This document shows positions 3,740 to 42,815 of a stretch of 47,676 nucleotides of DNA, one piece after another; position 1 is the first letter of the stretch, and every line of letters starts with the position of its first letter. Origin of the DNA: a virus. Under the pieces are notes generated by a model that was not told where the DNA came from, made no database searches, and was given only the letters and a program-made list of their open reading frames with translations. Position numbers and translations under genes: made by a program. Location of the stretch: the IMG/VR virus record IMGVR_UViG_3300046167_000911, positions 1 through 47,676 of that record. The stretch is one strand, 5' to 3'.

Positions 3740-5750
3740 TGTTTTACCCAAAATCCCAAATAAAAACTAATTTATCTACCAATGGTGGAGAATATATCTA
3801 TGATTCTAATAATCTCCCATATTCTGGAGATTATTTCATAACAGGGGATGGTAAAATATACACAGGGAAAAACCCAAATAATAAACCCAATTATTTACTT
3901 ATTCCTGTTAGTATAAATTTAACAGAAGCCCCAAACCCAGAAGGAGAAAAATTACCCAGTTCTTATTACATTGCAGATGATTATTACTACTATGCAAGAG
4001 GTATAGATGTCCCTTCTCCAATATCTTTACCAACACAAATATTTCCCAACACCCACAGAAAAAGATTATCAAATAGGAGAAATTCAAAGATATTTTGTTA
4101 AAAAAATTAATGAAATTAAATATATAGAAATAAATCAAGAAGAATTTGAACAATATCTAAACCAACAATCTACAGTTAGCTACCAATTGTATACTCCATT
4201 TTCTTTTCCATGGGTGTTAACAGGTAATAGATCTAATGCTTATAAAGTAAATAAAAAAACAATAGAAAGGGTACAAACAAATAATAGATTTCAAGGTTTA
4301 AAGTCTTATTTTAATGGTAAATATGACCAATTATTTAAATATTCCCCTGATGAAAACTTGTATACTGATGGAACAAAATTTCTTAACCCTTTAAATAGAA
4401 AACCTTATATAGGGTTTTACCATATAGGTCCCTGAAGGTAAACCAATGGAGGGGTCCCAACACACTGATAAACCACATAGTTTCTTAATCCCTGTATCTG
4501 AAACCTATAAAACAGAATCAACAGGTTCTACATATGTAACCCAATCTTGGTACGATTTAAGATATGGAAACCTTAATGGACCTATATATAAACCATTACC
4601 TGAACCACCACAAAACCCATACCCTGATGCCTTTATTACTACTTGGAAAACAACATCTCCTAATGAAGAAATTAAAATAGGACTTGAATCTAGTCAAACT
4701 TATAATTTTACTGTTTATTGGGGGGATGGAGATTCTGAAGAAATAACTTCCAGTGGAAATATTTCCCATACTTACCAAGATGCAGGAGAATACAGAGTTA
4801 TAATAGATGGTATTTTTCCACGAATATTAATGGTAAGACCAAATGTCACTAGAGATAAAATAATAGCCATAAACCAATGGGGTAATAATCAATGGGTTAG
4901 TATGTATAGGGCTTTTAAAGATTGTATCAATTTATATAGATGTAATCCTAGTGATACCCCTGATTTATCAATAACAACTTCACTAAGAGAAATGTTTAGA
5001 AATGCAGGTTCCAATTCTCCTAATCTATACATGGATAATATAGATGATTGGGATATTTCAAATGTTAATGATATATCATATATGTTTAGAGATGCAAGTT
5101 CTTTTAATCAAAATATTAATTCTTGGAATACTAATAATATATCTACCCTTGCAGGTATATTTTGGGGGGCATCATCTTTTGACCAACCCTTAAATAATTG
5201 GGATGTAAGTAATGTTATCAATATGTATAGAGCATTTTTTAATGCTACTTCTTTTAATCAAGATATAAATACTAAAGAAGTTATAGTAAATGGGGTTACT
5301 TATACTGCTTGGGATGTGAGTAGTGTTACTAATATGAGAGACACATTTAAAAATACGCCTTTTAACCAAAATATTAGTTCCTGGGATGTAGGTAATGTTA
5401 CAGATATGACAGAAATGTTTAGAAATACCCCATTCAACCAACCCATCGGAAGTTGGGATGTTAGTAATGTAACAAATATGCAAAGTATGCTTAGAACTAC
5501 TCCTTTTAACCAAGATATTAGTGATTGGGATATTAGGAAGGTAAGTAAATTTAATAACTTTATGGCAGACAGCTTTGCTCTAAACCCAACAAATTACAGT
5601 GCGTTATTAATACAATGGGTTACTCTACCACCTCAATCAAACATTACAATCCATTTTGGAGATGCTAAGTACACCACTGCAGCAGCCCCTGCCCATAACA
5701 CTTTAAGTACTACATACAATTGGACAATTACAGATGGAGGTCCACTATAA
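3739..5750 (+). CDS. Tail fibre/adhesin with PKD-like domain and DUF285 (BspA-type) repeats; two frameshifts
   Basis: Three open frames join into one protein of about 669 residues. One extra base near 4050 (IFP to TPTEKDYQ) and one in a CCC run near 4434 (HIGP to EGKPMEG) break it. Domain order: unrecognised N-terminal region with Tyr-rich DDYYYYARG; a PKD-like beta-sandwich at about residues 304-360 (VYWGDGDSEEI, ISHTYQDAGEY); then at least six DUF285-type repeats at about 380-607, each with WDVSNVTNM and an MF...FNQ-I core. DUF285/BspA repeats are common in surface proteins of Bacteroidota and other host-associated microbes. In the tail region they suggest host-receptor binding. The start shares a base with the upstream stop. 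Function as the receptor-binding fibre is inferred. Confidence 0.7.
5041..5560 (+). repeat. DUF285/BspA-type protein repeats in the adhesin
   Basis: Successive units of about 25 codons carry W-D-[VI]-S-N-V, then N-M, MF or an equivalent, and F-N-Q. Clear copies begin near 5047, 5119, 5200, 5308, 5380 and 5452. Copies have diverged at the DNA level, so this is an old protein repeat and not a recent tandem expansion. Confidence 0.75.
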
Positions 5751-5998: not shown

Positions 5999-6028
5999 TT
6001 TGGTTTATAAGATATATTGTCGTATATT
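5999..6028 (+). promoter_or_regulatory. Promoter, TTGG-N19-TATATT class
   Basis: TTTGG at 5999-6003 and TATATT at 6023-6028, with exactly 19 bases between TTGG and the -7 box. It precedes the polymerase-like gene by about 20 nt and marks the switch from tail genes to replication genes. Confidence 0.75.
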
Positions 6029-6048
6029 AGACCAAATAAATAAAGGTT

Positions 6049-7327
6049 ATGTTTTATTTAATAGAAAACGAGGAACAGTTAAATGTTTTAATAAATAGTG
6101 GTTATAAAAAGGCTTTCATTGAGGTAATACCTTATAATGATACAATACACCCTGTACAAAATCACGTAAGTTTAGTGTATATTAGACCGATTGAAGCAAG
6201 CAAGGGCTTTATGGTATGTGTTGACGCATAGTGAGGCTTTAAATGCTTTAAACACGCGTATAAACGATTTATTTAATAACTTTGATAAATTATATTGTAG
6301 GGATAAAAAAGAAATATTACATTATTACCCAAAAATAAACAAAGCTTTACATGACATCACACCATCCCCTACTACGTATATACGCCCTACAACACAAACA
6401 CACGATTTATACTATCGTCAACACAAAGATAACTTAGAGTTAAACCTAATTATACCGATTGTTAAACACTATGAATTATGTGAAACTATTTTTAGAGATC
6501 TAAAAGCAAATATTAACGATAAAAAAACAAAATACGATGAATTCTTTAACAGTAAAGTATCAGTGGTGTTCAACGCCATCGAGAGAAGTGGAATTCGAAT
6601 ACACAAACCAACATTCGAAGAATATTTCCATCCCATTAATGGTGAATACACCTACACTCAGTTCAACTTAAAAACAACAACAACAAGACCTTCAAATAAA
6701 TTTAAAAACGTAAATTATGCCGCACTTAATAAAGAAAATGGATGTAGAAAAAGTTTTATACCACGTAATAATAGGTTCGTGGAAATTGACATTAGCGCTT
6801 ACCATCCTTCTCTTGCTGCCCATCTTATTAATTATAAGTTTCCCACTAGTGATATTCACGCTCATTTTGCATCGTTATATAATGTTGATTATAAAAAATC
6901 AAAGGAGCTCACGTTCAAACAATTATATGGGGGTGTTTTCGAAAACTATAAAAAGCTGGAGTTCTTTCAACGAATTGAGAAATACGTAGGAGAAAATTGG
7001 AGTAAGTTTCAAAGCGATGGGTTCATTGAATGTCCGGTTTCTGGATTTAGATATGAAAAAGAAAAATTGGATAACATGAACCCACAAAAACTATTTAATT
7101 ACATTTTACAAAATTTAGAAACATCGGTAAATGTGTTGGTTTTGTGGGATATGTTTCGTATATTACGGGGATGTAAAACAAAGTTAGTATTATATACTTA
7201 TGATAGTTTTACATTTGATGTAGATGATGAGGAAATAAAGGTTTTAGAGGAAATTAGAGAAGTATTCAAAAAATATAAATTAAACATAAAAGAAAACGAA
7301 GGTTATGATTACCACTTTACAGAATAA
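6049..7327 (+). CDS. Divergent family-A-like DNA polymerase; one frameshift
   Basis: Two frames join near 6228 (one extra G; MVCVD to HSEALNAL) into about 425 residues. The C-terminal half shows three palm/fingers motifs of family A polymerases in order. Motif A is FVEIDISAYHPS (Asp near residue 247). Motif B is KELTFKQLYGG near 285, matching the O-helix Lys-x3-Phe-x3-Tyr-Gly spacing. Motif C is LYTYDSFTFDV near 384. The motif-A Glu of Pol I is replaced by His and the usual HDE is YDS, so it is far from Pol I. FIEVIPYNDT near the N-terminus may be a decayed 3'-5' exonuclease. The real replicase looks like the gp43 pair at 33039-36461, so this may be a specialised or accessory polymerase. Start ATG 6049 follows TAAAGGTT. 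Confidence 0.62.
7136..7164 (+). promoter_or_regulatory. Possible internal promoter, TTGG-N19-TATATT class
   Basis: TTGG at 7136-7139 and TTTCG-TATATT ending at 7164, with 19 bases between, inside the polymerase-like gene and about 140 nt before the next start. The match is exact, but one such hit could occur by chance in this AT-rich window. Confidence 0.4.
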
Positions 7328-7773
7328 TCCTAATACGTATAACACGAATTACGATGTTATAACGGACATAAAAATATTAGGAGATTTGCAAAACAAATTA
7401 TTTTGCACATTCACAGACTTAGATGGTCTTGATGTGTTAATTGAAGGCATAAAAAGAAAATACGATATTATATACAATAAAATCTTTGTACTAAAAATAG
7501 TAGGAAAAGATGAGTATGTAGTTACATATAATGTAGACCAAACAAATTTAAATTCAATACCAGAAAATACTATTTTAGGTACATAGAAAAAAAGAATCTA
7601 ATACTTTGTATACCATTAATGCCCTTAATGAATTAATTAAAAAATTGAATGGTGGGGTAGTAGATACAAGATATAGAGTAGATTGGCAACATTATAAAAA
7701 TTGTGTTTTACTTACCCAACACAATGAATTAAATCAATTGAATACAAAAATTTACAAAATAATTGATCTATAG
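7305..7773 (+). CDS. Hypothetical protein, one frameshift
   Basis: The frame opened by ATG 7305 ends early at 7586, but the next frame continues (HRKKESNTLYTINALNELIKKLNGG, ending YKIIDL at 7773). One extra base near 7580 would restore about 155 residues. The start overlaps the end of the polymerase-like gene by 23 bases, so the two are probably co-translated. No family recognised. It may be a partner of that polymerase, from position only. Confidence 0.5.
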
Positions 7774-7774
7774 C

Positions 7775-7803
7775 TTGGTTCCCCAAACCCTAGGTCGTAT
7801 ATT
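7775..7803 (+). promoter_or_regulatory. Promoter, TTGG-N19-TATATT class
   Basis: TTGGTTCCCC at 7775-7784 and GTCG-TATATT ending at 7803, 19-base spacing. It begins 2 bases after the preceding stop and serves the SSB/UvsX/exonuclease/helicase run. Confidence 0.8.
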
Positions 7804-7845
7804 ACAGTTACATATAAACAGTTATAATTAAAAATAAGTTACATT

Positions 7846-8688
7846 ATGGATTTAAATGCTTTAAAAGCAAAATTGGATACACTCCAATCAAAACCACAGC
7901 AAGGTGGTGGAAAAATTGATTACACAACCATTTATTGGAAACCTACAATAGGTAAACAACAGATTAGAATCGTACCATCAGCGTATGATGCTTCTAATCC
8001 TTTTACTGAATTGAAGTTTTACTATGGTATTACCAATAAGGTAATGATTTCACCTACAAATTTTGGTGAAAAAGACCCAATTGCCCTATTTGCTGGAAAA
8101 CTACGTGAAGGTGAGTATAATAAAGAAAATTATGTACTTGCTAAAAAGCTAGATGCTAAAAACCGTATTTTCGTTCCTGTAGTAGTTAGAGGAGAAGAAG
8201 ATAAAGGTACTAGATTATGGCAATTTGGTAAACAAGTATATGAAGAATTATTAGCACTTGCTGTTGATGATGAAATTGGAGATTACACTGATATTGTAAA
8301 TGGTAGAGACCTTACAGTAGAAACAGTAGGACCAGAATCTACAGGTACTCCTTATAATAAGTCATCAGTACGTGTTAGATTAAAAACATCACCACTTAGT
8401 GAAGATGCTTCATTAGTAGAAAAATGGACAAATGAACAACCAAATCCTAAAGGTGATTTGTTTAAACGTTATTCATTTGATGATATGAAAGTAGCACTAG
8501 AAAAATGGTTATCACCAGAAGAAGAAGAATCATCTAACGTAACGGAAAACGCATTTCCTACCCCAGCATCTACTTCTACTCCAAAACCAGCTACTAATTT
8601 TAGTTTAGATACTACTAAAGCTAAACAAAGTAAAGTAGACCAATTTGATAGTTTGTTTGATACTAAAACTGATGATTTACCTTTCTAA
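7846..8688 (+). CDS. 32: Single-stranded DNA-binding protein, gp32-like
   Basis: 280 residues. The N-terminus (MDLNALKAKLDTLQS) and the core (TIYWKPTIGKQQIRIVPS, FTELKFYYGI, RIFVPVVVRGEEDKGTRLWQFGKQVYEEL) match T4-type gp32 SSBs, which coat single strands in replication, recombination and repair. The C-terminal 60 residues are Ser/Thr/Pro-rich, then acidic, ending DDLPF. That is very like the D-D-I-P-F tip of bacterial SSBs used to dock partners. It is directly followed by uvsX (2-base gap) and stands behind its own strong promoter with about 40 nt of leader. The zinc-binding Cys of T4 gp32 are not apparent. Confidence 0.85.
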   Translation: MDLNALKAKLDTLQSKPQQGGGKIDYTTIYWKPTIGKQQIRIVPSAYDASNPFTELKFYYGITNKVMISPTNFGEKDPIALFAGKLREGEYNKENYVLAKKLDAKNRIFVPVVVRGEEDKGTRLWQFGKQVYEELLALAVDDEIGDYTDIVNGRDLTVETVGPESTGTPYNKSSVRVRLKTSPLSEDASLVEKWTNEQPNPKGDLFKRYSFDDMKVALEKWLSPEEEESSNVTENAFPTPASTSTPKPATNFSLDTTKAKQSKVDQFDSLFDTKTDDLPF

Positions 8689-8690
8689 AC

Positions 8691-9764
8691 ATGGCGAAAA
8701 AAGTATCAAAGTCTCTCTCGGCAGCAGTGTCTGCCGAGATTAAGAGCAAATTTGATCTAAATAAATTTAAATCCTCTAAAGGTTTAGATAAAAACGTCAA
8801 ATTTAAGGAACAAAAATGGATACCACTATCTCCCGCTTTCCAAGAAATTGCAGGAATACCTGGTATACCTATGGGACACATTTCATTACTTAGAGGACAT
8901 TCTGATACAGGGAAAACTACTGCTTTACTTGAAGCAGCAGTATCATCACAGAAAATGGGAATATTACCTGTTTTTATAATTACTGAGATGAAATGGAATT
9001 GGGAACATGCAGCTCAAATGGGGTTAAATGTTAACTTAATCAAAGATGATGAAGGTAATGTTATAGATTATGAAGGGAACTTTATTTATGTTGATAGAGA
9101 AACTTTACATACCATTGAAGATGTAGCAGCATTTATTATGGATTTACAGAATGAACAGAAAAAAGGTAATTTACCTTATGACTTAGCATTTTTCTGGGAT
9201 TCTATTGGTTCAATTCCTTGTGCAATGTCAGTTGAAAAACTGAAAAATAATAATGAATGGAATGCTGGTGCAATGTCAACACAATTTGGTAATACTGTTA
9301 ACCAAAGTATTGTAATGTCTCGTAAAGAATCATCTCCTTATACTAATACTTTAGTTTGTATTAATAAAGTTTGGACTGCTAAAGCAGAATCACCTATGGG
9401 TCAACCAAAAATGATGAATAAAGGTGGGATGGCTATGTGGTATGATGCAACATTCGTAGTTACATTTGGTAATGTGTCAAATGCTGGAACATCTAAAATT
9501 AAAGCCATTAAAGGTGGTAAACAAGTAGAATGGGGTAAAAGAACCAATCTACAAATTGATAAGAACCACGTTAATGGAATTCAATCTAGGGGGAAAATTG
9601 TTATGACAACCCATGGTTTTATTACAGATACAGATAAAGACAAAAATGCTTATAAAAAAGAGCATGCTGATGAATGGTCTAAAATCCTAGGAGGAGGAAC
9701 ATTTAAAATTGTAGAAGACCAAGAAGATGTAACCCCTGTACTTTACGACGTACAAGACTTATAA
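8691..9764 (+). CDS. uvsX: UvsX/RecA-like recombinase
   Basis: 357 residues. Walker A is GHSDTGKTT at about residue 65-73, preceded by IPMGHISLLRG. A Walker B-like strand (LAFFWDSIGSIP) lies near 165-176 and NAGAMSTQFGNTVNQ near 190. This is the phage UvsX branch of RecA: ATP-dependent strand exchange for recombination-dependent replication and repair on gp32-coated DNA. The start is 2 bases after the SSB stop, and the exonuclease follows 9 bases later. Length fits the family (T4 UvsX about 390). Confidence 0.85.
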   Translation: MAKKVSKSLSAAVSAEIKSKFDLNKFKSSKGLDKNVKFKEQKWIPLSPAFQEIAGIPGIPMGHISLLRGHSDTGKTTALLEAAVSSQKMGILPVFIITEMKWNWEHAAQMGLNVNLIKDDEGNVIDYEGNFIYVDRETLHTIEDVAAFIMDLQNEQKKGNLPYDLAFFWDSIGSIPCAMSVEKLKNNNEWNAGAMSTQFGNTVNQSIVMSRKESSPYTNTLVCINKVWTAKAESPMGQPKMMNKGGMAMWYDATFVVTFGNVSNAGTSKIKAIKGGKQVEWGKRTNLQIDKNHVNGIQSRGKIVMTTHGFITDTDKDKNAYKKEHADEWSKILGGGTFKIVEDQEDVTPVLYDVQDL

Positions 9765-9773
9765 AACAAAATC

Positions 9774-10812
9774 ATGAAGCATAAAGAATTATTTAATCTC
9801 TTGGATGATATCCAAGAAGATCAGGAGATACCTACTCCAAATAGACACGATAGAGTATTAATATTAGATGGTTTAAACTTATTTTTTAGAAATTTTGCCA
9901 TGATGAATATGGTTAACCCCGATGGTGTTCATATTGGAGGATTAGGTGGATTCTTTCGTTCTTTAGGTGCTATGATTAGACAAACAAATCCAACTTCTGT
10001 TTATGTAGTATTCGATGGAGCAGGTTCAACCGTAAATCGTAAGAATTTGCTCTCCGAATACAAAGGAACAAGGAATTTGTCTAGAATTACTAATTGGGAA
10101 GCATTTGATAATATTGAGGATGAACATGACTCAAAAATCGACCAAATTGTACGTATAATACAATATTTAAAGCTATTACCTGTTAAAACCACCATACTCG
10201 ACAAAGTTGAAGGCTGATGATATTATAGCCGTGTTAGCTGAAAAACTAGTAGAAAAACATGATTCTACTTGTTTTATAGTATCTAGTGATAAGGATTTTT
10301 TACAACTAGTAACTGATAAAATTATTGTATATAGACCTATGGAGAAAGAATATTATACTCCAAAAGTTGTAGAAGAGAAATTTGGTTTATTACCTCATAA
10401 TTTCATATTACACAAAACACTATTAGGCGATAACTCAGATAATATCAGGGGTATTAAAGGTTTAGGTGCTAAAGGTATATTTAAAAAGTTTCCTGAATTA
10501 AAAACACAAGAATTAAATCTCCAAGACATTTTCGATATATCTGCTAGGAAATTTAAAGAACATATTGTATATTCACGTATCGTTCAGGAACAAGATAGAA
10601 TTGAAACTAATTATAAAGTTATGGATTTAAGTGTTCCAATGATAGACGATAGAGGTAAAGAATATATTGACAATTTAATAGTAGATGATTTACCTGAATT
10701 CAACCCAGAAATGTTTACTTCATTTTATAATGAAGATAAATTAGGAGGGATGATTAGGAATTTAGATACATGGTTAAAAGATATATTCTCTATGTTCCCA
10801 ACTTACAAATAA
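9774..10812 (+). CDS. rnh: 5'-3' exonuclease / RNase H (FEN-like), one frameshift
   Basis: Two frames join near 10210 (one extra base; DKVE to KADDIIAVLAEKL) into about 345 residues. Metal-site motifs are in order: VLILDGLNLFFRNF near residue 24, VYVVFDGAGS near 80, ADDIIA near 146, SSDKDFLQLV near 165, and a helix-hairpin-helix region GDNSDNIRGIKGLGAKG near 222. This is the T4 RNase H / FEN family that removes RNA primers and 5' flaps on the lagging strand. It sits between uvsX and the helicase gene. The break is probably a sequencing error because both halves are fully conserved. Confidence 0.82.
10545..10573 (+). promoter_or_regulatory. Possible internal promoter, TAGG-N19-TATATT
   Basis: TAGG at 10545-10548 and TATATTCACG starting at 10568, 19-base spacing, inside the exonuclease gene about 260 nt before the helicase start. 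It uses the same TAGG variant as the promoter before DNA polymerase. It could be a chance match. Confidence 0.3.
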
Positions 10813-10831
10813 TAAAATAAATAGGTTATAA

Positions 10832-12205
10832 ATGACATTAAATTCCATTCAAAATTATGGACACGATTTTCAAATTAAAGTGTTATCATCATTATTAACA
10901 CATAAGGAATTTCTAGTCAATATACATGATATTATATCAGATGAATATTTTGAAAACCCCGCTATTAAGTGGTCTATAAAAGAAATACTTAAATATTTTG
11001 ATAAATATCATACTACCCCCTCATTAGATATATTAAAAGTAGAATTACAAAAAGTAGATAATGACGTATTACAAATCTCAATTAAAGAACAATTAAAACA
11101 AGCATTTGTTACCTCAGATGAAGATTTAGAATATGTACAAGAAGAATTTACTAATTTTTGTAAGAACCAACAATTGAAGAAGGCCTTAATGTCGTCTGTG
11201 GACTTATTGAAAGCAGGCGATTTTGATGGTATTCGTTTTATTGTAGATAATGCTTTAAAAGCAGGTCAAGATAAAAACCTAGGACATGAATATGTTAAAG
11301 ATATAGAATCAAGATATAGAGAAAATTCAAGAGAAACTATACCAACCCCTTGGGATAAAATTAATGAATTATTGCAAGGTGGGCTTGGAAACGGAGATTT
11401 TGGTCTTATATTTGGTAATCCTGGAGGTGGTAAATCTTGGTCATTAGTTGCTTTAGGTGGACATGCTGTAAGATTAGGGTATAATGTTCTTCATTATACT
11501 TTAGAGTTAGGGGAAGATTATGTTGGGAAAAGATATGATGCTTTTTTCACCAAAATACCAGTTAATAAAGTAGATTCCCATAGAGATAAAATTGAAGAAA
11601 TCATACCCCAATTGCCAGGTAAACTAATTATCAAAGAATACCCAACAGGTAAGGCAACAATCTCAACAATTGAATCTCATATTGCGAAAGCAACAAGCAT
11701 GGGAGTTAAACCTGACTTAGTAATTATTGATTATGTAGACCTTCTTTCATCAAGAAAAAAGAATCGTGAACGTAAAGATGAAATTGATGATATTTATACA
11801 AGCACTAAAGGATTAGCTCGACAATTAGATATTCCTATTTGGTCTGTTTCTCAAGTTAACCGTGCAGGAGCAAATGACAATGTTATCCAAGGAGATAAGG
11901 CAGCAGGATCATATGATAAAATTATGATAACTGATTTTTGTATGTCTCTTTCACGTAAAAAAGAAGATAAAGTTAACAACACAGGTAGATTTCATTTAAT
12001 GAAAAACAGATATGGAATGGATGGACTTACCTTTGGTATAGAAGCAGATACTTCAACTGGTCATTTTATTGTAAAAAATGAATACATAGAAGGAGATGAA
12101 TCTGAATCTATGGTCCCAACAACACGTTCAAATAAATTTGATACTGATGTTGATAAATTTGATAAACAATTATTACAAAAGAAATTTTTTGAATTAAACT
12201 CTTAA
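10832..12205 (+). CDS. 41: Replicative DnaB-family helicase (gp41-like)
   Basis: 457 residues. An N-terminal helical domain of about 160 residues (FQIKVLSSLLTHKEF start) is followed by a RecA-like motor: Walker A GNPGGGKSW near residue 195, Walker B LVIIDYVDLLSSR near 298, and SVSQVNRAG near 341. It matches DnaB/T4 gp41, the hexameric 5'-3' helicase that unwinds the fork and binds primase. No primase gene is visible in the window. It follows the exonuclease by 19 bases and precedes nrdB by 13. Confidence 0.87.
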   Translation: MTLNSIQNYGHDFQIKVLSSLLTHKEFLVNIHDIISDEYFENPAIKWSIKEILKYFDKYHTTPSLDILKVELQKVDNDVLQISIKEQLKQAFVTSDEDLEYVQEEFTNFCKNQQLKKALMSSVDLLKAGDFDGIRFIVDNALKAGQDKNLGHEYVKDIESRYRENSRETIPTPWDKINELLQGGLGNGDFGLIFGNPGGGKSWSLVALGGHAVRLGYNVLHYTLELGEDYVGKRYDAFFTKIPVNKVDSHRDKIEEIIPQLPGKLIIKEYPTGKATISTIESHIAKATSMGVKPDLVIIDYVDLLSSRKKNRERKDEIDDIYTSTKGLARQLDIPIWSVSQVNRAGANDNVIQGDKAAGSYDKIMITDFCMSLSRKKEDKVNNTGRFHLMKNRYGMDGLTFGIEADTSTGHFIVKNEYIEGDESESMVPTTRSNKFDTDVDKFDKQLLQKKFFELNS

Positions 12206-12218
12206 TAAAATAAAATAA

Positions 12219-13205
12219 ATGGCAAAAACATCATTACTACAAGAAAGAATAGTCTACAAACCCTTTGAATATCAGCAAGCTTCTGATTATTGGTTAAAAC
12301 AACAACAAGCACATTGGTTACACACAGAAGTACCTATGATGTCTGATGTTAATGATTGGAAACAAAATTTAACTGAATCTGAAAAAAATATTATTGGGAC
12401 TATATTAAAAGGGTTTGCCCAAACAGAAACTGTAGTAAATGATTATTGGTCAACTTTAGTTACAAAATGGTTTAGAAAACCTGAAGTAATTAAGATGGCA
12501 GTTACATTTGGAGCGTTTGAAACTATTCATGCTGAAGCATATTCTTTATTAAATGAAGAATTAGGTTTAGATAATTTTAGTGAATTTTTAGAAGATGAAG
12601 CAACAATGGCTAAAATTGAAGCATTAACTGAAGTAAGAGATTCACATGATGGAACCCCAAATTGGCATGAAAGAGCAAAATCATTAGCTATATTCTCAGC
12701 ATTTACAGAAGGTGTGAATTTATTTTCATCATTTGCTGTTTTATTATCCTTTAAATTAGATAATAAATTAAAAGGAGTAGGTCAGATCGTAGAATGGAGT
12801 ATTAGAGATGAATCATTACATTCTGAAGCGGGGTGTTGGTTATTTAGAACATTAATGCAAGAACATCCTGAATATAACACACCTGAATTACAAGCTGATA
12901 TTGAAGAAGCAGCTAAATTATCTTTAAAGTTAGAATTAGATTTTATTGATAAAGTATATGAAATGGGTGATTTAACAGGTTGTCCTAAATATGATTTAAT
13001 TTCATTTATTAAACATAGAGTAAATACTAAAATGAGTGATTTAGGGTATGGACCAATTGTTAATGGTATAGATAAGGATGCAGTTAAAAGAATGAAATGG
13101 TTCGATAGTTTATCAGCAGGAAAACAGCATACTGACTTCTTTGCAAATAGGGTAACTAATTATTCTAAGGGTGTTCAAAATTGGGACGCAAACGATTTAT
13201 TTTAA
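12219..13205 (+). CDS. nrdB: Ribonucleotide reductase small subunit (class I, NrdB)
   Basis: 328 residues. It carries the diiron/radical features of class I beta subunits: an early EKNIIGTILKGFAQTE helix, FETIHAEAYSLL (Glu, His and the radical Tyr in E-x2-H-x3-Y), EGVNLFSSFAVLLSF, and IRDESLHSEAGCW supplying the late Glu and His ligands. It forms the NrdAB enzyme with the next large gene, making dNTPs for phage DNA. The start follows A/T-rich sequence after a 13-base gap. Confidence 0.88.
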   Translation: MAKTSLLQERIVYKPFEYQQASDYWLKQQQAHWLHTEVPMMSDVNDWKQNLTESEKNIIGTILKGFAQTETVVNDYWSTLVTKWFRKPEVIKMAVTFGAFETIHAEAYSLLNEELGLDNFSEFLEDEATMAKIEALTEVRDSHDGTPNWHERAKSLAIFSAFTEGVNLFSSFAVLLSFKLDNKLKGVGQIVEWSIRDESLHSEAGCWLFRTLMQEHPEYNTPELQADIEEAAKLSLKLELDFIDKVYEMGDLTGCPKYDLISFIKHRVNTKMSDLGYGPIVNGIDKDAVKRMKWFDSLSAGKQHTDFFANRVTNYSKGVQNWDANDLF

Positions 13206-15170: not shown

Positions 15171-15644
15171 ATGAGATTAATATGTTTCATTTTTGCCTTA
15201 ATGGTAGGCATTAATGCGTATAGTCAAGAAACTATACACATACAAAAAGTTACCAATAACATAGTTATGGGCCCATTTGCAGGTAACCGTAACCTGGCTT
15301 TTGGTGTACAAAATATCCTAGAAGAAATTATCCAAGATAAAGACTACTATTTAGATGATAATTCACCAAGAAATATTAAAGTCGAACTATTATACTTTGA
15401 CATAAAGAAAAATAACATGCAATTGGCAGCATATGGGCGTAAAGTCAATATTACCCAAATTATTGCAGGTGCAAGGTTAATATTAGATGGAAAAGTAGTA
15501 AAAGAAGTAATTGCTAAAGGAACTTCTAAATCTATTTCAACATCTACTTTAATTATAGATGATGGAGGAAAATTTTCCCAAGCTAGTGTATCCTCTGCAC
15601 TTAAAAAAGTTTGTGAACAACTTATAAATAAATTAAAATTATAA
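15171..15644 (+). CDS. Small exported protein of the CsgG-containing block
   Basis: 157 residues from ATG 15171. The frame is open further upstream to a GTG, but a signal peptide (MRLICFIFALMVGINAYSQ) begins exactly at this ATG. The mature part alternates beta strands and ends with GKVVKEVIAKGTSKSISTSTL, DDGGKFSQASVSSALKKVC and an amphipathic helix. That C-terminal Gly/Ser plus helix pattern resembles the end of CsgG/LpoB-like envelope proteins, but I cannot assign it firmly. It overlaps the next start (TAATG), so it is probably co-translated with the cohesin-like protein. Confidence 0.6.
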   Translation: MRLICFIFALMVGINAYSQETIHIQKVTNNIVMGPFAGNRNLAFGVQNILEEIIQDKDYYLDDNSPRNIKVELLYFDIKKNNMQLAAYGRKVNITQIIAGARLILDGKVVKEVIAKGTSKSISTSTLIIDDGGKFSQASVSSALKKVCEQLINKLKL

Positions 15645-17335
15645 TGAAAAAACTATTATTTTTATTACTTTTACCTTTTGGGCTACTAGCTCAACAAGGT
15701 TATTTAAGTCATAGCTACATTGATGATGATTCAAATGGGTTTGTAGTTGGGCAAGAGATTACTATAAAGTTTGAAGGAATTCAAGGAAATGAGATGACAC
15801 CTGATCGTGTTCATTTTGACTTTGAGTGGAATAACAAACTTTTAGAATATGTTTCACATACATTCAATCCTACCTCAGGTTTACCCTCTGATGCTCAAAC
15901 ATCTTGGAATATGTGGAATGGGTATAAGTTTAATCCTATTAATTTTTATGCTGGAATAGCAATTGCTGAATCAGATTTAGATGTTCAATATGAACAAGGA
16001 TGGTTAAATTCTTCTACTTCTTACCCCCAAACACCAAATTGGTCAGTTGCAAGAGTAATTATACAATCATCATCAGATTTACCTTTATCTACAGAATGGA
16101 TTTATGTTAAATTTAGAATTAAAGATAGACAAGGAACAGGATATGATAACTATAATAACGTTACAGATCTGAACTTTGCTGGCTTTGAAGATATTAGTGC
16201 AAGCTCAGGGCTATATGATATAAATGCTGGTACAGAAAATATTTCGTTAGCTAATGTAAGTGGAGTAAATGCAGGTAATGTCACTATTAATTTAAATTCT
16301 GCTGCTAAATCCCAATATGCTACTGACTTTACTTATGCTATTTATGCTGCTGATGGAGTAAATGGTAAAACAGGAAATGCAATTGAAACAGGTAATTTTG
16401 ATGCAAACGGTCAAGTAATTACTAGTAATTTAATTGTAGGTGGGAAATATTATGTGGAGATACAAGTAAACGATCAATCCACTTGGTTAGATGATGTTTT
16501 AACTATTACAGATGCTTTTATAATATTTAAACAAGGTAATGCTACTGGAGCAGGAGGACCTGGAGATACAAGTAACCAAAATACATTTGATTATTCTATT
16601 CAATATCTTTTAGGAGAATTAAACAATTCAGGAAACATTACTCCTGCGGATGCTTATCAAGCTTTGGGACACGTACAAGGTGTAGAAGGGTTAAGTGAAT
16701 GGTTTACCAATAAAATCAACGGATCTAAAAACGTCTGGGGTAGAATTGAACAGTTAGGTGTATCAACTGACGATTATTATTTCGGACAAAAATATATTAT
16801 TGAACCTACAGATGTTGTTAAATCATTTAACTTCGGTCATGCTTTAATTGGTGATGTAGATTTTTCACATGGGTATGCTCCTACAGCTGAAGGAAGCTCT
16901 TTTTCAACTACTTCTCAAGCACAAGCAAGAATGACTTTAACATCAAGAGCATTAAGTCAAGCAGTTGAAAGTAACTTAGATGTTGTTTCTGAATTAATAG
17001 ATGGTAAAGTACACTTTACTATTAATTTACAAGAAGAAGGAGTAGTAGGTACTCAATTTAATATAAATTATGATGATACTATTTTAACTTTAGATAATGT
17101 AATTTTTGATACTGGAAATACAATGACAAATTTTGCAAATCATAAACAACAACAAGCTAAAGTAAATATAGGATCTTTAGACCAATCAGGAGGAATATCA
17201 ATTAAAACAGGGAATGCTTATAGATTAATATTCACTCCAAACGAAACATTACAAAACACATCAGGGTTAATTACTTTTAAATTAACTGAAGGTATTAAAG
17301 CTGATGGACAAAAAGTTCAATTTATAATTCAATAA
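15644..17335 (+). CDS. Exported cohesin-like protein
   Basis: 563 residues with a signal peptide (MKKLLFLLLLPFGLLAQ). An N-terminal beta domain at about 20-170 (FVVGQEITIKFEGIQGNE, VHFDFEWNNKLLEYVSH) and a C-terminal one at about 450-560 (GTQFNINYDDTILTLDNVIF, GNAYRLIFTP, GLITFKL) have the look of cohesin or carbohydrate-associated beta-sandwiches. Between them, ITPADAYQALGHVQG near residue 330 resembles half of a dockerin EF-hand. It is probably displayed at, or secreted across, the outer membrane by neighbours. Whether it becomes a virion part or remodels the host surface is unknown. Confidence 0.6.
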   Translation: MKKLLFLLLLPFGLLAQQGYLSHSYIDDDSNGFVVGQEITIKFEGIQGNEMTPDRVHFDFEWNNKLLEYVSHTFNPTSGLPSDAQTSWNMWNGYKFNPINFYAGIAIAESDLDVQYEQGWLNSSTSYPQTPNWSVARVIIQSSSDLPLSTEWIYVKFRIKDRQGTGYDNYNNVTDLNFAGFEDISASSGLYDINAGTENISLANVSGVNAGNVTINLNSAAKSQYATDFTYAIYAADGVNGKTGNAIETGNFDANGQVITSNLIVGGKYYVEIQVNDQSTWLDDVLTITDAFIIFKQGNATGAGGPGDTSNQNTFDYSIQYLLGELNNSGNITPADAYQALGHVQGVEGLSEWFTNKINGSKNVWGRIEQLGVSTDDYYFGQKYIIEPTDVVKSFNFGHALIGDVDFSHGYAPTAEGSSFSTTSQAQARMTLTSRALSQAVESNLDVVSELIDGKVHFTINLQEEGVVGTQFNINYDDTILTLDNVIFDTGNTMTNFANHKQQQAKVNIGSLDQSGGISIKTGNAYRLIFTPNETLQNTSGLITFKLTEGIKADGQKVQFIIQ

Positions 17336-26188: not shown

Positions 26189-27079
26189 ATGGCAAAACAC
26201 GTAGTAGTTTCGTTAAGCGGTGGAATGGATAGCAGCACCCTATTATTAAGAGCATTATCAGAATACGATACTGTAACAGGTATCTCTTTTGATTATGGTC
26301 AAAAACACAGAGTAGAGTTAGAACGAGCTCAATCATTAGTAGATTATGTAAATGATAACCCAACAAGAGTATTTAATATTCGTGAAACCATGGAAGGGTA
26401 TTCTGAAGTATATCCTGAAGTGAATTACCGTCAAATCAAATTAGATGGACTAGTAGATTTACTAGACTCAGCTTTAGTTGAAGGTGGGGATGATGTACCA
26501 GAAGGACATTATGAACAGGATAATATGAAGGAAACTGTTGTTCCTAATAGGAATAAAATATTTGCTTCTATTACACAAGCTGTAGCATTATCAATAGCAA
26601 ACAGAACAGGAGAAACTTGTGACATTGCTTTAGGTATACATGCAGGTGATCATGCTGTTTACCCAGATTGTAGACAAGAATTTAGAGATGCAGATGATAA
26701 AGCATTTCGTGAAGGTAATTGGGATGCAGAAAGAGTAGGTTATTTTACCCCTTATTTAAATACTGATAAGTTTGGAATTTTACAAGATGGGGAAAAATTA
26801 GTTGAGGAACTAGGTTTATCATTTGATGAGGTGTACAAACGTACAAATACATCTTATAAACCAATCAAATACTACTCTAGACCAGAAACAAAGGCTTACA
26901 AATGGTATTCAGATTACAAATCAGCTTCTTCCGTAGAAAGAATTGAAGCCTTTATTAAGTTAGGAAGACCTGATCCTGTAGAATATGCAGACGAAACAGG
27001 ACCTGTATCTTATGATGTAGCTAGAGCCGCTGTAGAAAAAGTACTATCTGAACACGTAGCAGTTAAAGGTAGAGATTAA
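26189..27079 (+). CDS. queC: QueC-like 7-cyano-7-deazaguanine synthase lacking the zinc cysteines
   Basis: 296 residues. The PP-loop ATPase motif SLSGGMDSSTLLL (residues 8-20), FDYGQKH near 34, VPNRNKIF near 116 and DIALGIHAGDH near 145 identify QueC, which converts 7-carboxy-7-deazaguanine via the amide to preQ0. The C-terminal zinc site of typical QueC (a TxSCY element then CGxCxSC) is replaced: NTSYKP and KSASSVERIEAF occupy these places, and the protein has only two Cys, both upstream (TCDIA, PDCRQ). The scaffold R-x2-AF-x3-G-x-PDPVEY is intact, so this is substitution, not truncation. It may work without zinc or stop at the amide. Confidence 0.85.
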   Translation: MAKHVVVSLSGGMDSSTLLLRALSEYDTVTGISFDYGQKHRVELERAQSLVDYVNDNPTRVFNIRETMEGYSEVYPEVNYRQIKLDGLVDLLDSALVEGGDDVPEGHYEQDNMKETVVPNRNKIFASITQAVALSIANRTGETCDIALGIHAGDHAVYPDCRQEFRDADDKAFREGNWDAERVGYFTPYLNTDKFGILQDGEKLVEELGLSFDEVYKRTNTSYKPIKYYSRPETKAYKWYSDYKSASSVERIEAFIKLGRPDPVEYADETGPVSYDVARAAVEKVLSEHVAVKGRD

Positions 27080-30707: not shown

Positions 30708-30737
30708 ATAGTGAGCAAAAAACCACTTAAAAAAATT
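30708..30737 (+). repeat. 30-bp direct repeat, copy 2
   Basis: Begins ATAGTGAGCAAAAAACCACT; one base differs from copy 1 (29171-29200). It lies about 25 bases before the folE2 start chosen here. Confidence 0.8.
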
Positions 30738-30761
30738 AATAAATCAAAACAAATAAAAATT

Positions 30762-33038: not shown

Positions 33039-34801
33039 ATGTATAAAAAAGCATATACTGGTAATAAATTAAAACATTTAGGTCCTAATTGGGTTGAAAT
33101 TCACCTTTGGGATGATAAAGACGATTACAAAGTAGTACCTTACAACAACATAGCATACCAGGAATGTAGTGAAGAAGAATCTTCACATAAAGGGTTAAAT
33201 GGAGAATTTTTAAAACCTATATCAAAATGGTTTTTTTCAAAAAACCCTGATTATAGTGCTAAAAATACTCCTAATCTTCATTTCCACGATATGAAACCCC
33301 ATCAAAAATTTTTGGTTGAAAAATATGGAATCAATGATGAACCTTCTACGGGTCATAGGGAAGTATTTTTTGATATTGAGTGTGAAATAGGAGGTGCTTT
33401 AACTGAAGAATATATTGAAGATGCACCAATGCCTATAACTTCTATTGCTTGGTGGGATAAACAAAAAGATTATTGGTCTATTCTAATTTTGGATAGAAAA
33501 AGCCAATTATCACATACCAAAACAGGTAAGAATAAAAACAAAGAAATCATACCTTGTTCTACAGAGAATGAATTATTAGCTAAATTTGTGGAAGCAATAA
33601 GAGAAATGAACCCTGACATATTAGTAGGATACAACTCAGATTATTTTGATATACCCTATTTGTACTACAGAATGTGTAGAACAATAGGTAAAGATTGGGC
33701 TGATCATTTATCTCCTATTGGTAAAGTAAATTGTAAAAAGAATAATAAATATTTCTTTAAACAAAACCAATATGTAGATATTGTTGGTATTGAATCTTTA
33801 GATTATATTCGTTTACATAAAAAATATAGTTGGAAAGATGAACCAAGTTGGAAATTAGATGCTATTGGGGAAAAATATGTTGGTATGGGTAAAGTTGAAT
33901 ATGAAGGAAACCTAGATCAACTATTTGAAACAGATATACATAAATTTATACAGTACAATTTTGTAGATGTAGAGATTCTTCAAAAATTAGATGAAAAACT
34001 ACAATATCTTGCTTTAACTAAGAATATATCACATAAAGGAAAACACAATTATAGTGAAGTTTATGCTAATAGTATTTCACAAGATGGAGCAATTTCAGCA
34101 TATTTACTCTCACAAGATATTATACCACCCCCAAAAGAACCTAACCCTCAAAAGAAGGATAGTTACGCAGGTGGATATCTTTTTTGCCCTAAAGCAGGAT
34201 TGTATAAGTATATGTTTGATGAGGATTTAACATCACTGTATCCCTCTATAATAATGTCTATAAACATAGGTAAAGAAACATTCGTGGGTCGTATTGTAGA
34301 TGCTGATGACCGTAATAATAGATTGGGACTTAACGATTTAAAAGCTAAAGACCTTAAGGAATTATTGTTAGTTGAAAATGGAAAACGTCAACAAACTAAT
34401 GTAGAAGTAGGAGAGTTAATAAAAATAATTGAATCTCAAAAATTAGCAGTAGCTGCTAATGGTTCAATGTTTAGAACAGATAAAGAAGCAGTATTGTCTA
34501 CTATTCTAAAAAAATGGTTTAAGGAAAGGGTTGTTTATAAAAACCGTATGAAAAAAGCATATAAAGCTGGAGATAAAGAATTAGGAGAATATAATCCATT
34601 TAATGCAATATACTATGAAGATCCTCTTGAAACTCCCTTTATGGTGCAACCGCTCTCCCTTCTTTTAGATATGGAATGAATTTCCAAACATTAAGTGAAG
34701 CAATCACATTATCAGGCCATAGAATAATACAAGAATCAGCTCTGTGTGCAAATCGTCACATGAATAAAGTTATGAAGGGAACAGTAAAGTTAGACATATA
34801 A
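33039..34801 (+). CDS. 43A: DNA polymerase family B (gp43), N-terminal half; two frameshifts
   Basis: About 586 residues. Proofreading motifs: EVFFDIECE near 108 (Exo I), NPDILVGYNSDYFDIPYL near 200 (Exo II), FVDVEILQKL near 310 (Exo III). Polymerase motif A DEDLTSLYPSII is near 394. Motif B becomes readable only after removing an extra base near 34600 and another near 34635: MQYTMKILLNSLYGATALPS, then RYGMNFQTLSEAITLSG. The frame stops at 34801 after HMNKVMKGTVKLDI, before motif C, which is in a separate gene from 35525. The two products total about 897 residues, matching T4 gp43 (898). Confidence 0.85.
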
Positions 34802-34822
34802 ATCCATGCAAGACAAAAGGTA

Positions 34823-34850
34823 ATGCGTTAAACGCGCGTAAAATGCGCAT
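34823..34850. other. GC-rich palindromes in the polymerase split
   Basis: Within 28 bases are ATGCG, the self-palindromes ACGCGCGT (34832-34839) and ATGCGCAT (34843-34850), all CG-rich in an otherwise AT-rich region. It lies directly after the first polymerase half. Could be a terminator, intron remnant or recombination relic. Confidence 0.4.
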
Positions 34851-34865
34851 AAATTACATAATATT

Positions 34866-35137
34866 ATGACACTAAAAAAACAATCAATTAGAAAAAACCA
34901 AACCATTTTAGCTAACGATAAACCCTATATCCAAGGACGGAATTAATAGCTGAAAGTGAAAACTGGTCTGAGATACAAGAGAATTTCTTTAAAAAAATGA
35001 TTAAACAAGGTGGTACTTTTAATGTTAATAAAGTTAAATATAGAGTAACCATAGCTGATAGAGATGATTTAGATTCAAAAGGAAACAAACCAGTTAATAT
35101 GCCTCTTAGCACCAGGGGAAAGAACATTTTAAATTAA
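34866..35137 (+). CDS. Small hypothetical protein inside the polymerase insertion; frameshifted
   Basis: MTLKKQSIRKNQTILANDKP is broken near 34938. The next frame continues ELIAESENWSEIQENFFKKM, GTFNVNKVKYRVTIADRDDL and MPLSTRGKNILN to a stop at 35137, about 90 residues. No family recognised. It is neither an endonuclease nor an intein by motif. Confidence 0.5.
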
Positions 35138-35141
35138 AAAT

Positions 35142-35525
35142 ATGCAAGTAGAAATATCAAATGGGGAATTATTAGATAAAATCTCAATTTTAGAATTAAA
35201 AATTCTTAGAATTGAAGATGAAGAAAAGTTAATTAATGTTATGACTGAATTTGATGCTCTTAATCCTTTAGTTATAGAATTATTTGAAAAATATGATGGT
35301 CAACTTCAAAACCATTATCTTGAACTAGCTAAAATTAATGGTGAACTTTGGGATATAGAAGATTGGATTAGAGATTGCGAACGTGAGAAGAGATTTGATA
35401 AAGAATTTGTAGAATTGGCTCGTTCTGTGTATATTACTAACGATAAAAGATGTGAAATCAAAAAATTAATTAATTTAGTAACATCATCAGAATTAGTAGA
35501 AGAAAAATCATATAAAAAATATTAA
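35142..35525 (+). CDS. DUF6165-like protein inside the split polymerase
   Basis: 127 residues: MQVEISNGELLDKISILELK, LAKINGELWDIEDWIRDCER, FVELARSVYITNDKRCEIK, LVEEKSYKKY. This strongly resembles the DUF6165 pattern (ISxGELxDKISILxIK...EEKSY), a family I associate with sugar/glycan gene clusters. Function unknown. Its TAA overlaps the ATG of the second polymerase half (TAATG), so that half is likely translated by coupling. Confidence 0.72.
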   Translation: MQVEISNGELLDKISILELKILRIEDEEKLINVMTEFDALNPLVIELFEKYDGQLQNHYLELAKINGELWDIEDWIRDCEREKRFDKEFVELARSVYITNDKRCEIKKLINLVTSSELVEEKSYKKY

Positions 35526-36461
35526 TGAAACATTTAGAAGAAGTTCCTTGGTTTATATGTGACCCCGATGATACAAACTATTGCTCTTACATGGATACAG
35601 ATTCAGTGTATTTAGATGCCCAACCTTTAGCCGAACATCTATATCCTGAATTTAATTCTCTCCCCGAAGATAAAAAAGATGAGCTTATAGAAAATATGGC
35701 TTTAAAATATCAGGATATAATTACGGATTATTATGGCGTTTTATGTAAAGAATGCTTCAATGTTACAGAACATAGACTTGAAATGAAGACAGAAGCAGTT
35801 ATTAGAGCTGCTTATTTCAGAGCAACAAGAAGATATGCTCAGTGGATTACAAAACAAGAGGGTATTTCAAAAGAAACACTAGATATTAAAGGTTTAGAGT
35901 TCATGAAAGCGAATTTTCCCACCTATTTTAGGGGAATTTTTCAATGATATACTTCAACAAGTACTTAAAGGTGAAGAAAGAGATAGTATTTTAGAACAAA
36001 TTAAAGTATTTAAAAAACAAATATTAGATGGTACTATACCGCTAGTTAAACTAGGTAACCCAACAGCAGTAAAAAAACTTGAAAAATATTCTGGAAAAAA
36101 TGCTAGAGCCGGTGAAATGTTTACAGAAATCCTCAAAGGAGCCCCAGCCCCAGTAAGGGCAACTATTCGCTATAATGATTTATTGCGACTATGGCAATTA
36201 GATAAAAAACATAATTTAATAACCATGGCCGATAAGGTTAAATTTATATATTTAAAAGATAACCCTTATAAAATAGAAGCACTAGCATTCCAACCCCATG
36301 ATATACCTGAAAAGATAAATGATTTTTTAGAAAGATATGCGGATAGACAAAAAGTATTTGATACTATATTATTAAATAAACTAACTGGGTTTTTCTCTGA
36401 TCTTTCTTGGAAGCTTGATTTGAACCCTTATGTAAATGCTTTATCTTCCTTTGAGATATAA
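35525..36461 (+). CDS. 43B: DNA polymerase family B (gp43), C-terminal half; one frameshift
   Basis: About 311 residues once an extra T near 35920 is removed (KANFP to PILGEFFNDI). It starts MKHLEEVPWFICDPDDTNYC and carries motif C YMDTDSVYLD within the first 35 residues, then the thumb (ECFNVTEHRLEMKTEAVIRA, RRYAQWITKQEG, DIKGLEFMKANFP). It ends LNPYVNALSSFEI, near the clamp-binding tail position. It complements 33039-34801: half A has exonuclease, motif A and motif B, while half B has motif C and the thumb. Both are needed for catalysis, so the halves must assemble. Confidence 0.85.
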
Positions 36462-38125: not shown

Positions 38126-38414
38126 TGCAGTTATTGTAAAACCAATAGAAGTAGAAGAAACTACTTATGGAAACATTATTGTCCCAGATTTAGGAAAAGA
38201 AAAAAATGAAACTGGACAAGTTGTTGCTGTTGGTCCTGGAAAGCCTACTATTACAGGAGAATTTATTCCTACTAATTTAAAAGTAGGTGATAAAGTAATT
38301 TTACCTACCATGGGATTCACAAAGTTACCATATAATGGAGAAGAATATTACGTTGGACCAGAGAACCAGATATTAGCAAAAATTAATCAAAAAGATATAA
38401 AAGAAAATGAGTAA
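38103..38414 (+). CDS. groES: GroES-like co-chaperonin
   Basis: 103 residues: MELEALFDAVIVKPIEVEET, TYGNIIVPDLGKEKNETGQV, VAVGPGKP, GDKVILPTMGFTKLPYNGEEYYVG and ILAKI show the GroES order of strands. The mobile-loop region (residues 20-35) has Ile-Ile-Val-Pro, like bacterial GroES IVLP. The stop overlaps the groEL start by 8 bases, so both are made in step. Confidence 0.85.
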   Translation: MELEALFDAVIVKPIEVEETTYGNIIVPDLGKEKNETGQVVAVGPGKPTITGEFIPTNLKVGDKVILPTMGFTKLPYNGEEYYVGPENQILAKINQKDIKENE

Positions 38415-40026
38415 ACAAGTTACACTAGGTTCAAAAGCAAGAACCAATCTAGTTAAAGGAATTGACACTTTAGCTGATGCCGTAGTATCAACATTAGGAC
38501 CAAATGGAAGAAATGTAGTAATTACTAATAATGGAGCTCCACAATCTACTAAAGATGGAGTTACAGTTGCAAAATCAATATCACTTTCAGATCCTGAACA
38601 AGAATTAGGGGTACAGTTAGTAAAACAAGCCGCAATAAAAACAGCTGAAAAAGCAGGGGATGGTACAACCACATCTACTTTATTAGCTCGTGAAATGATT
38701 AAAGCAGGTTTAAATGCTTTAAATAATAGTGAAAATGCAGTACAAATTAAAAGAGATATTGATTTAACAGTTAAACAAGTAGTAGATAACCTTAGAAATA
38801 ACATATCAGAAGATATTTCAGGGGAAGAACAATTAGAACAAATTGCCTCTATCTCAGCAAATAATGATCCTGAAACTGGAAAATTAATTGCTACTGCAAT
38901 AGATAAAGTAGGACTAGAAGGAGTAGTCCATATTGAAGAATCTCGTACTGGAGAAACTTATTTAGAAACTGTTGAAGGGTTACAATTTGATAGAGGTTAT
39001 AAATCACCTTATTTTGTTACTAATAATAGTAATATGACTTCTACCTTAGATAATCCCCTTATTCTTATTGCAGACCAAAAATTAACTCAAGTAAAAGAGT
39101 TATTACCTGTATTAGAAGCAGTAGGAGCCCAAGCTCGATCTTTATTAATCATTGCAGAAGATATTGATAATGAAGCTTTAGCTACCCTTATTGTAAATAA
39201 AATGAGAGGTACATTAAATGTATGTGCTGTCAAAGCCCCAGATTTTGGAGACAGACGTAAATTAGTTTTAGAAGATATTGCTATCACAACAGGTGGTGTT
39301 GTATTTGATAAACAAAAAGGAATGAAACTTGATAAATTTTCTTGGGAATGGTTTGGAGAAGCTCGTACTGTAACAGTAGAAAAAGAACAAACTACAATCG
39401 TAGATGGAAAAGGAACTGTAGAATCAATTGAAGCACGTATTGAAGAATTACAACAACAAATCAATAAAGCTGCAACCCCTTTCGAAATCGAAAAACTTCA
39501 AGAAAGACTTGCGAAATTCACAGGAGGAGTAGCAATTATTCATGTAGGTGGAAATACTGAAACTGAAATGAAAGAAAAGAAAGACAGAGTTGATGATGCA
39601 TTACATGCAACCAAAGCAGCTATTGAAGAAGGAATAGTACCAGGGGGAGGAACAGCATTATTATATGCATCTTCAGGTATAGAAGCTAAAACAACAGGAG
39701 CTATAATTGTAAAACATGCTTGTGCTAAACCATTTAACCAAATTTTAGTTAATGCTGGTTATGATGCCGTTAAAGGACAAATTTTAGCAGATACTTTAAT
39801 TAACTCAGGTAATGATACTTGGGCCGGATATAATATTAAAACTGATGAAACAGTTAATATGAAAGAAGCTGGGATTATTGATCCAACTAAAGTAGCTAGA
39901 ACAGCATTACAAAATGCAGCATCAGTTGCAGGTACTGTATTACTTACAGAATGTACTATAGTAGATGAACCTAATGATGATAAACAACAACCACAAATAG
40001 ACCCAATGATGGGTATGGGAATGTAA
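38407..40026 (+). CDS. groEL: GroEL-like chaperonin
   Basis: 539 residues, full length (host GroEL about 545). LGPNGRNVVITNNG near residue 30, KDGVTVAKSISLSDPEQELG near 50, AEKAGDGTTTSTLLAREM near 80 (ATP site Asp), GVVHIEESRTGETYLE, the apical domain, and EEGIVPGGGTALLYA near 405 are canonical. The end MMGMGM matches the Gly-Met tail. Complete phage groEL with groES is uncommon. It would supply a folding cage tuned to phage proteins during late infection. Confidence 0.93.
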   Translation: MSKQVTLGSKARTNLVKGIDTLADAVVSTLGPNGRNVVITNNGAPQSTKDGVTVAKSISLSDPEQELGVQLVKQAAIKTAEKAGDGTTTSTLLAREMIKAGLNALNNSENAVQIKRDIDLTVKQVVDNLRNNISEDISGEEQLEQIASISANNDPETGKLIATAIDKVGLEGVVHIEESRTGETYLETVEGLQFDRGYKSPYFVTNNSNMTSTLDNPLILIADQKLTQVKELLPVLEAVGAQARSLLIIAEDIDNEALATLIVNKMRGTLNVCAVKAPDFGDRRKLVLEDIAITTGGVVFDKQKGMKLDKFSWEWFGEARTVTVEKEQTTIVDGKGTVESIEARIEELQQQINKAATPFEIEKLQERLAKFTGGVAIIHVGGNTETEMKEKKDRVDDALHATKAAIEEGIVPGGGTALLYASSGIEAKTTGAIIVKHACAKPFNQILVNAGYDAVKGQILADTLINSGNDTWAGYNIKTDETVNMKEAGIIDPTKVARTALQNAASVAGTVLLTECTIVDEPNDDKQQPQIDPMMGMGM

Positions 40027-42206: not shown

Positions 42207-42815
42207 ATGGCACATATTTACAAAATTACTAATCCTAAAGAAGAAGTATATATAGGACAAACAATTGATTTAAAAGGAAGAATGCATCGTTATTCAACCG
42301 TTAGTAAATCATCTCTGGGTCGAAGTATATATAATTCTTTAAAAAAATATGGTTGGGATAATCATACTTTTGATGTTATTGAAGTCTGTGAGGAAAATAA
42401 ATTAAATGAACGAGAAAGATTTTGGATCAAAAAATTTAACAGTTTTAATAAAGGTTTAAATTTAACAGAAGGTGGTTCAAGTGGAAGACATAACCATGAA
42501 ACATGTTTGAAAAAATCCAAATCTATGACTGGAAAAACTCATAGTAAAGAAACACGTCAAAAAATGAGTGATACTAAAAAGAATCACCCAATGTATACTA
42601 AGGAATGGAAAGATAAAATGAGAAAAGGGGCTTGGAGTTCAAAAACAAGTGCTAAACCTATTTTACAATTTGATAAAGAACATAACCTTATAAAAGAATG
42701 GGAATCCAGCAGAAAAGCAGCTAGGGAATTAGGACTTCATATAGGTCCATTATCCAGTGCGTTAAATGGTAAATACCATACTTGTGGGGGGTTTGTTTGG
42801 AAATTTAAAGAATAA
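42207..42815 (+). CDS. GIY-YIG homing endonuclease
   Basis: 202 residues. The nuclease core shows HIYKITNPKEEVYIGQTIDL (the GIY...YIG strands are IYK and YIG), RMHRYSTV and GWDNHTFDVIEVCEENKLNE with the catalytic Glu in NERERFWIKKF. It is followed by NUMOD-type DNA-recognition modules (SKSMTGKTHSKETRQKMSDT, KPILQFDKEHNLIKEWESSR, GGFVWKFKE). It lies between the gp44 and gp62 loader genes, a typical free-standing homing location, with its own late-type promoter. Confidence 0.9.
   Translation: MAHIYKITNPKEEVYIGQTIDLKGRMHRYSTVSKSSLGRSIYNSLKKYGWDNHTFDVIEVCEENKLNERERFWIKKFNSFNKGLNLTEGGSSGRHNHETCLKKSKSMTGKTHSKETRQKMSDTKKNHPMYTKEWKDKMRKGAWSSKTSAKPILQFDKEHNLIKEWESSRKAARELGLHIGPLSSALNGKYHTCGGFVWKFKE

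Follow-up and report, generated by a model that had tools for sequence, protein, structure and literature searches.

The window (the whole stretch of viral DNA that was analysed, 47,676 nucleotides long) encodes, between positions 6049 and 7327, a divergent DNA polymerase of family A, with a small conserved gene directly behind it. The polymerase belongs to the family divPolA1, which was described in 2024 (PMC11348598). The locus is laid out as follows.

6020..6029, + strand: promoter-like element TCGTATATTA, 19 bases before the divPolA1 ATG
6049..6231, + strand: N-terminal section of divPolA1, a vestigial exonuclease domain, read in the frame that precedes the extra G; full-length relatives have it in one piece with the remainder
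6191..7327, + strand: main part of divPolA1 (rest of the exonuclease remnant, probably short thumb, palm, fingers); true reading from ~6223
6223..6223, + strand: extra G, a probable sequence error; the ~60 relatives printed in the alignment have no base here
7305..7773, + strand: partner gene (gp002 in Flavobacterium phage immuto), ~155 aa, directly downstream of divPolA1 and conserved; interrupted by one additional G, at 7579

The two parts of the polymerase lie in different frames because of the one extra G at 6223, and the apparent TTG start at 6191 is a by-product of this split. Intact relatives have a single open frame of ~425 aa, with a start equivalent to 6049, and read, for example, ATG-GTA-TGT-GTT-ACG-CAT-AGT-GAG where the window has its additional G. 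The preliminary description took 6049–7327 to be a polymerase gene; a family-A polymerase is indeed encoded there, but in two frames, not one. When relatives' proteins were scanned against the window, breaks of the same type appeared near 4020, 7560–7580 and 10200, and the family-B polymerase gene is fragmented too, at 34600–35600. A contig that is 99.4% identical to window positions 6353–12326 (L005; site 6223 falls outside it) has no breaks at 7579 and ~10210, and its other differences are single substitutions. These breaks are therefore specific to the window sequence and are most simply sequence errors, as the split at 6223 probably is. That the split is instead a programmed frameshift, or the mark of a decaying pseudogene, seems to us scarcely credible. 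The frames do overlap, at 6191–6231, but the single open frame of full-length relatives led us to reject programmed frameshifting, and the genes at ~4020, 7579 and ~10210, and that for PolB, are broken likewise. The window thus seems to contain indel errors, and any further 'short ORF' reported from it may have the same cause.

The polymerase motifs fall within the main part.

6788..6811, + strand: motif A, DISAYHPS, with His at the position of the steric-gate Glu (E710 in E. coli Pol I)
6890..6931, + strand: motif B, Y-x3-K-x3-F-x3-Y-G (in the window, Y-KKS-K-ELT-F-KQL-YG), covering the R754, K758, F762 and Y766-G767 positions
7193..7210, + strand: motif C, YTYDSF, with the D882 equivalent kept, H881 replaced by Tyr, and E883 by Ser or Ala

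All three occur in order, as had been noticed at the outset, and far beyond what chance allows, given 82 relatives, a PHROG match and the predicted fold. Conservation was gauged in an alignment of 153 sequences that spans several divergent groups, with Pol I residue numbers assigned by motif alignment. The equivalents of D705, K758, Y766, Q849 and D882 are invariant, and N845 is Asn in 152 sequences. Within motif B, whose core K-E-L-T-F-K-Q-L-Y-G occupies 6902–6931, K and Y are universal (153/153), G is present in 152 and F in 150; the R754 position is Tyr in 146 and Arg in 6, and the occurrence of Arg supports the register. In motif C, D is found in 153/153, and Tyr occupies the H881 position in 152. 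Among 82 aligned relatives, D245, H250, K283, F287, Y291-G292, Q352 and D383 have no exception.

The steric-gate Glu of Pol I is the barrier to rNTPs; typical of family A, though not strictly defining for it, it is missing here. Its replacement by His, which the preliminary description had read from DISAYHPS, holds in 153/153 sequences, marking a divergent branch rather than an ordinary PolA. That description also set YDSF in motif C against the usual HDE. The YDS is there, and the change of His to Tyr is indeed odd; the third position is less so, for it varies in ordinary phage PolAs, too, which have HDS in Kayvirus and HDQ in immuto gp199. The constant, distinctive changes are thus the His gate and the motif-C Tyr.

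The structure was predicted, from an alignment of 70 sequences, for L004, the nearest intact homologue, which shares 86% identity with the window protein. The model is of high quality (mean pLDDT 92.1, pTM 0.90), contains a palm domain, in keeping with the family-A fold proposed in the preliminary description, and aligns along its whole length with Pol I large fragments: with 6vdd at Z 26.7 and rmsd 3.1 over 390 residues, and with the other Pol I entries among the matches listed at Z 24.8–26.5. Its best Foldseek match is the apicoplast polymerase, an A-family enzyme (E 5.6e-17). The resemblance to bacterial large fragments (Klenow, Bst, M. smegmatis Pol1) thus extends from the fold (Z 25–27) to the motifs T-x-R and K-F-Y-G, the metal Asp pair, and the N845 and Q849 positions. 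The differences are substantial, however: identity is ~14%, Glu710 has become His, His881 Tyr and Arg754 usually Tyr, the exonuclease acids are lost, and divPolA1 is ~150 residues shorter (423 residues in the model versus ~570–580 for the aligned Pol I, a difference in total length). When the conserved N-terminal columns are mapped to Pol I by sequence, all four exonuclease acids are unrecognizable, and the 3'–5' exonuclease appears to have been inactivated, its catalytic Asp replaced.

Yutin et al. (2024, Virol J 21:200; PMC11348598) gave the name divPolA1 to a divergent PolA found in 14 phages, among them the exemplar, Flavobacterium phage immuto. These phages have a regular PolA, PolB or PolC as well; the divergent enzyme has conserved palm residues, a truncated thumb and an inactivated exonuclease; its gene lies among conserved replication genes; and the regular polymerase has GroEL or GroES encoded nearby (PMC11348598). 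Most of these features recur here. The nearest annotated relative of the window protein is immuto gp001, 'DNA polymerase family A' (tblastn, 35.5% identity over 94%, E 3e-63), a near full-length homology, and the palm catalytic residues, the dead exonuclease, a second polymerase, replication neighbours in an operon and a nearby GroEL-like protein are all found. Where the window departs from immuto's divPolA1 is in sequence, its group being ~35% identical, in the regular polymerase, which here is PolB, and in the one-base split of the window copy. Microcystis phage Mel-JY01 and the 484-kb genome LR756508 carry further relatives. Barbaviruses, too, encode a divergent PolA, divPolA2, in addition to their regular polymerase, but it is described with an unrelated N-terminal domain and a variable neighbourhood (PMC11348598), whereas in the window protein the N-terminal part resembles Pol I and the neighbouring genes are fixed.

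Profile searches reach the family with uneven success. PHROG 17, 'DNA polymerase', matches the polymerase domain of the window protein (E 2.7e-9), but searches of Pfam and of PDB sequences with that protein gave nothing useful. Pfam DNA_pol_A matches only three of 15 divPolA1 members, with a best E of 4.6e-11, and a divPolA1 family profile run against PDB sequences returned a chance match to ribosomal S8 only. The preliminary description recognized no characterized subfamily, and this has been overtaken, since the clade is divPolA1; its view of a second, divergent family-A polymerase beside PolB holds. The window therefore adds a branch member with PolB as its regular replicase to a real, widespread and known family. 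What goes beyond the published text is the His gate in 153/153 sequences, the usual Tyr at R754, and the directly linked partner gene; the His may already show in that paper's figures.

Relatives are numerous in viral contigs. Searches with four polymerase queries returned 117, 312, 109 and 0 relatives, overlaps still included, the last figure being for the homologue from LR756508. That homologue (L003, at ~240919–242274 of LR756508.1) lies in a genome well beyond the 155–190 kb published for divPolA1 phages (PMC11348598), and in it the partner gene is ~1.5 kb downstream rather than adjacent. Among 84,980 genomes of bacteria and archaea, only nine contigs had it, all from metagenome-assembled genomes and several of Flavobacteriales, so that divPolA1 looks essentially viral.

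The gene at 7305 had been thought coupled to the polymerase, and its conserved adjacency bears this out, although the gene is longer than first read: the extra G at 7579, absent from L005, cuts it, and the true reading continues to 7773. Its relatives are ~129–156 residues long. It lies just downstream of divPolA1 at 65–66 of 66 loci in the window's group, 66 of 68 in immuto's and 71 of 78 in that of Mel-JY01, counts in which some loci end too soon to show the partner. Six records of the annotated phage collection contain the partner, and exactly these six contain the polymerase; the best 80 partner loci in viral contigs, which are the relatives nearest the window, have divPolA1 in 80/80. A PHROG search with the partner found no family giving a function. 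Its predicted model (pLDDT 77, the first 28 residues of low confidence) had no significant match in fold searches (best Foldseek E 0.19, best Z 6.8). A resemblance to the DNA-binding domains of papillomavirus E2 and polyomavirus T-antigen (T-antigen Z ~6.1–6.5) was considered and set aside, its scores being below a meaningful level.

Downstream lie the replication genes, and farther on the regular polymerase and a chaperonin.

7846..8688, + strand: gp32-like single-strand DNA-binding protein, SSB (PF08804, E 3.9e-10)
8691..9764, + strand: RecA/UvsX-like recombinase, homologue of immuto gp005 'recombinase'
9774..10812, + strand: 5'–3' exonuclease (flap/RNase H type), PF02739 in both halves; split near 10210, a one-base difference to L005
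10832..12205, + strand: DnaB-like replicative helicase, homologue of immuto gp007
33039..35947, + strand: family-B DNA polymerase, the regular replicase, in pieces (33039–34679, 35525–35947); PF00136/PF03104, PHROG 262
38407..40026, + strand: GroEL-like chaperonin, recognized from its translation, ~2.5 kb after the last PolB piece

In both the window's group and immuto's, the order partner, SSB, recombinase, exonuclease, helicase is kept, with offsets that hardly vary. That the polymerase stands first in the replication block, and that the phage has a PolB replicase besides, were both early observations and both stand. In immuto the regular polymerase is a canonical PolA with the Glu gate, and a DnaG primase is encoded. 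Replication of a mobile element, once suggested as the polymerase's task, was rejected: the locus has no element features and the operon context is fixed and conserved.

The element TCGTATATTA also stands before the SSB gene (7795), the clamp loader gene (40959) and a clamp-like ORF (36470); the copy before the PolB gene (33006) has one mismatch. With at most one mismatch there are 16 sites in the window, all on the + strand, versus 7.3 expected, and none of 100 shuffles reached 16. Such sites (0–1 mismatch) lie shortly upstream of many genes, further examples being at 37775, 40656 and 43198, among others. Exact copies occur within 120 bases of the start at 16 of 65 loci of the window's group, and at fewer in other groups. 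Judged from its sequence and placement, the element is likely to be a phage promoter common to replication genes.

Several other genes of the window deserve mention. QueC (26189–27079), a radical SAM protein placed like QueE (29202–30008) and a FolE2-type GTP cyclohydrolase (30711–31781) make up a 7-deazaguanine pathway; together with DpdA in immuto, they make deazaguanine modification of the DNA likely. Among signal-peptide-like proteins after the RNR genes is a secreted-looking one (15644–17335) in which a cohesin-like domain is weakly matched (PF00963, E 2e-4, short of the curated cut-off), and immuto encodes a 'cohesin domain' protein at the corresponding position. The protein encoded at 4446–5750, adjacent to the tail genes, contains WDVSNVTNMxxMF repeats, recognized by eye as surface repeats of the DUF285/BspA-like kind, and is possibly a receptor-binding or adhesion protein. 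A GIY-YIG homing endonuclease with NUMOD domains is encoded at 42207–42815, between replication genes.

What does divPolA1 do? Its discoverers proposed a role in replication and named no step (PMC11348598). On balance we favour, with some reserve, an exonuclease-less Pol I-like enzyme that fills SSB-coated gaps in concert with the 5'-nuclease of its operon. From the fold, the conservation of the metal Asp and K-F-Y-G residues, the loss of the exonuclease, the operon and the coexisting polymerase, we infer an activity, a substrate and a step served. The protein, ~425 residues with a shortened, dead 3'–5' exonuclease domain, probably a reduced thumb, and complete palm and fingers, would be an active DNA polymerase that lacks proofreading and synthesizes short DNA patches where the template is coated with SSB. 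It would extend lagging-strand or D-loop 3' ends and fill gaps, while the separately encoded 5'-nuclease—to judge from gene order—would remove primers and flaps. Between them, the two would do the job that bacterial Pol I does in one chain, leaving bulk replication to a swappable PolA, PolB or PolC. The partner may serve as an accessory subunit for nucleic-acid binding or tethering.

The same features can be read differently. Lost proofreading, a probably short thumb and an operon shared with a recombinase and SSB would suit a translesion or recombination-specific repair polymerase that works with the RecA-like recombinase and is dispensable in normal replication. We consider this unlikely, since very wide conservation and a constant place in the core operon, kept while the main polymerase is exchanged, suggest a routine role (PMC11348598). 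The changes at the triphosphate-contacting Arg754 (usually Tyr), the gate Glu and the motif-C His mean that catalysis could be weak, altered or absent. Taken to the extreme, with the Arg754, Glu710 and His881 positions all changed, divPolA1 might be a catalytically dead replisome scaffold acting with the partner protein; this is very unlikely, for the equivalents of both metal Asp residues, K758, Y766 and Q849 are invariant, which would not be expected of a dead enzyme.

The main novel alternative is a primer-making or ribonucleotide-tolerant polymerase, in which the His gate would loosen discrimination between sugars and allow RNA or mixed primers, or transcripts, to be made. The universal His would fit, as would the helicase in the same operon and the presence of Bst E658A–rCTP complexes (4dqq, 4dqr) among the fold matches. 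T7-type RNA polymerases, moreover, evolved from the same fold as family-A polymerases and share the palm, and the HDS of their motif C resembles YDS. In divPolA1, however, with its 425 residues, the promoter-binding domains are missing, and the fold matches listed are DNA polymerases, with no RNA polymerase among the best 50 in either search. The F762 equivalent and Y766 are kept, and a bulky His may still act as a gate. Immuto's DnaG, too, argues against divPolA1 as the only primase. We rate this role as improbable. Much the same doubt attaches to the idea that divPolA1 and the 7305–7773 protein are obligate partners in a two-subunit polymerase of a functionally new kind, whose invariant His gate and Tyr at the Arg754 position alter sugar or primer specificity (so that RNA–DNA hybrid primers are made or extended, for example), and that it is this pair, and not the exchangeable replicase, that makes up the fixed core of replication in these phages.

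Whichever of these is nearest the mark, an invariant His at the steric gate poses a clean question on sugar selection in family A, and the partner gene, left undiscussed in the published divPolA1 text (PMC11348598), is a candidate subunit. divPolA1 is the constant part of a replication operon in phages whose chief replicase may come from family A, B or C, and so its job bears on how phages swap replicases.
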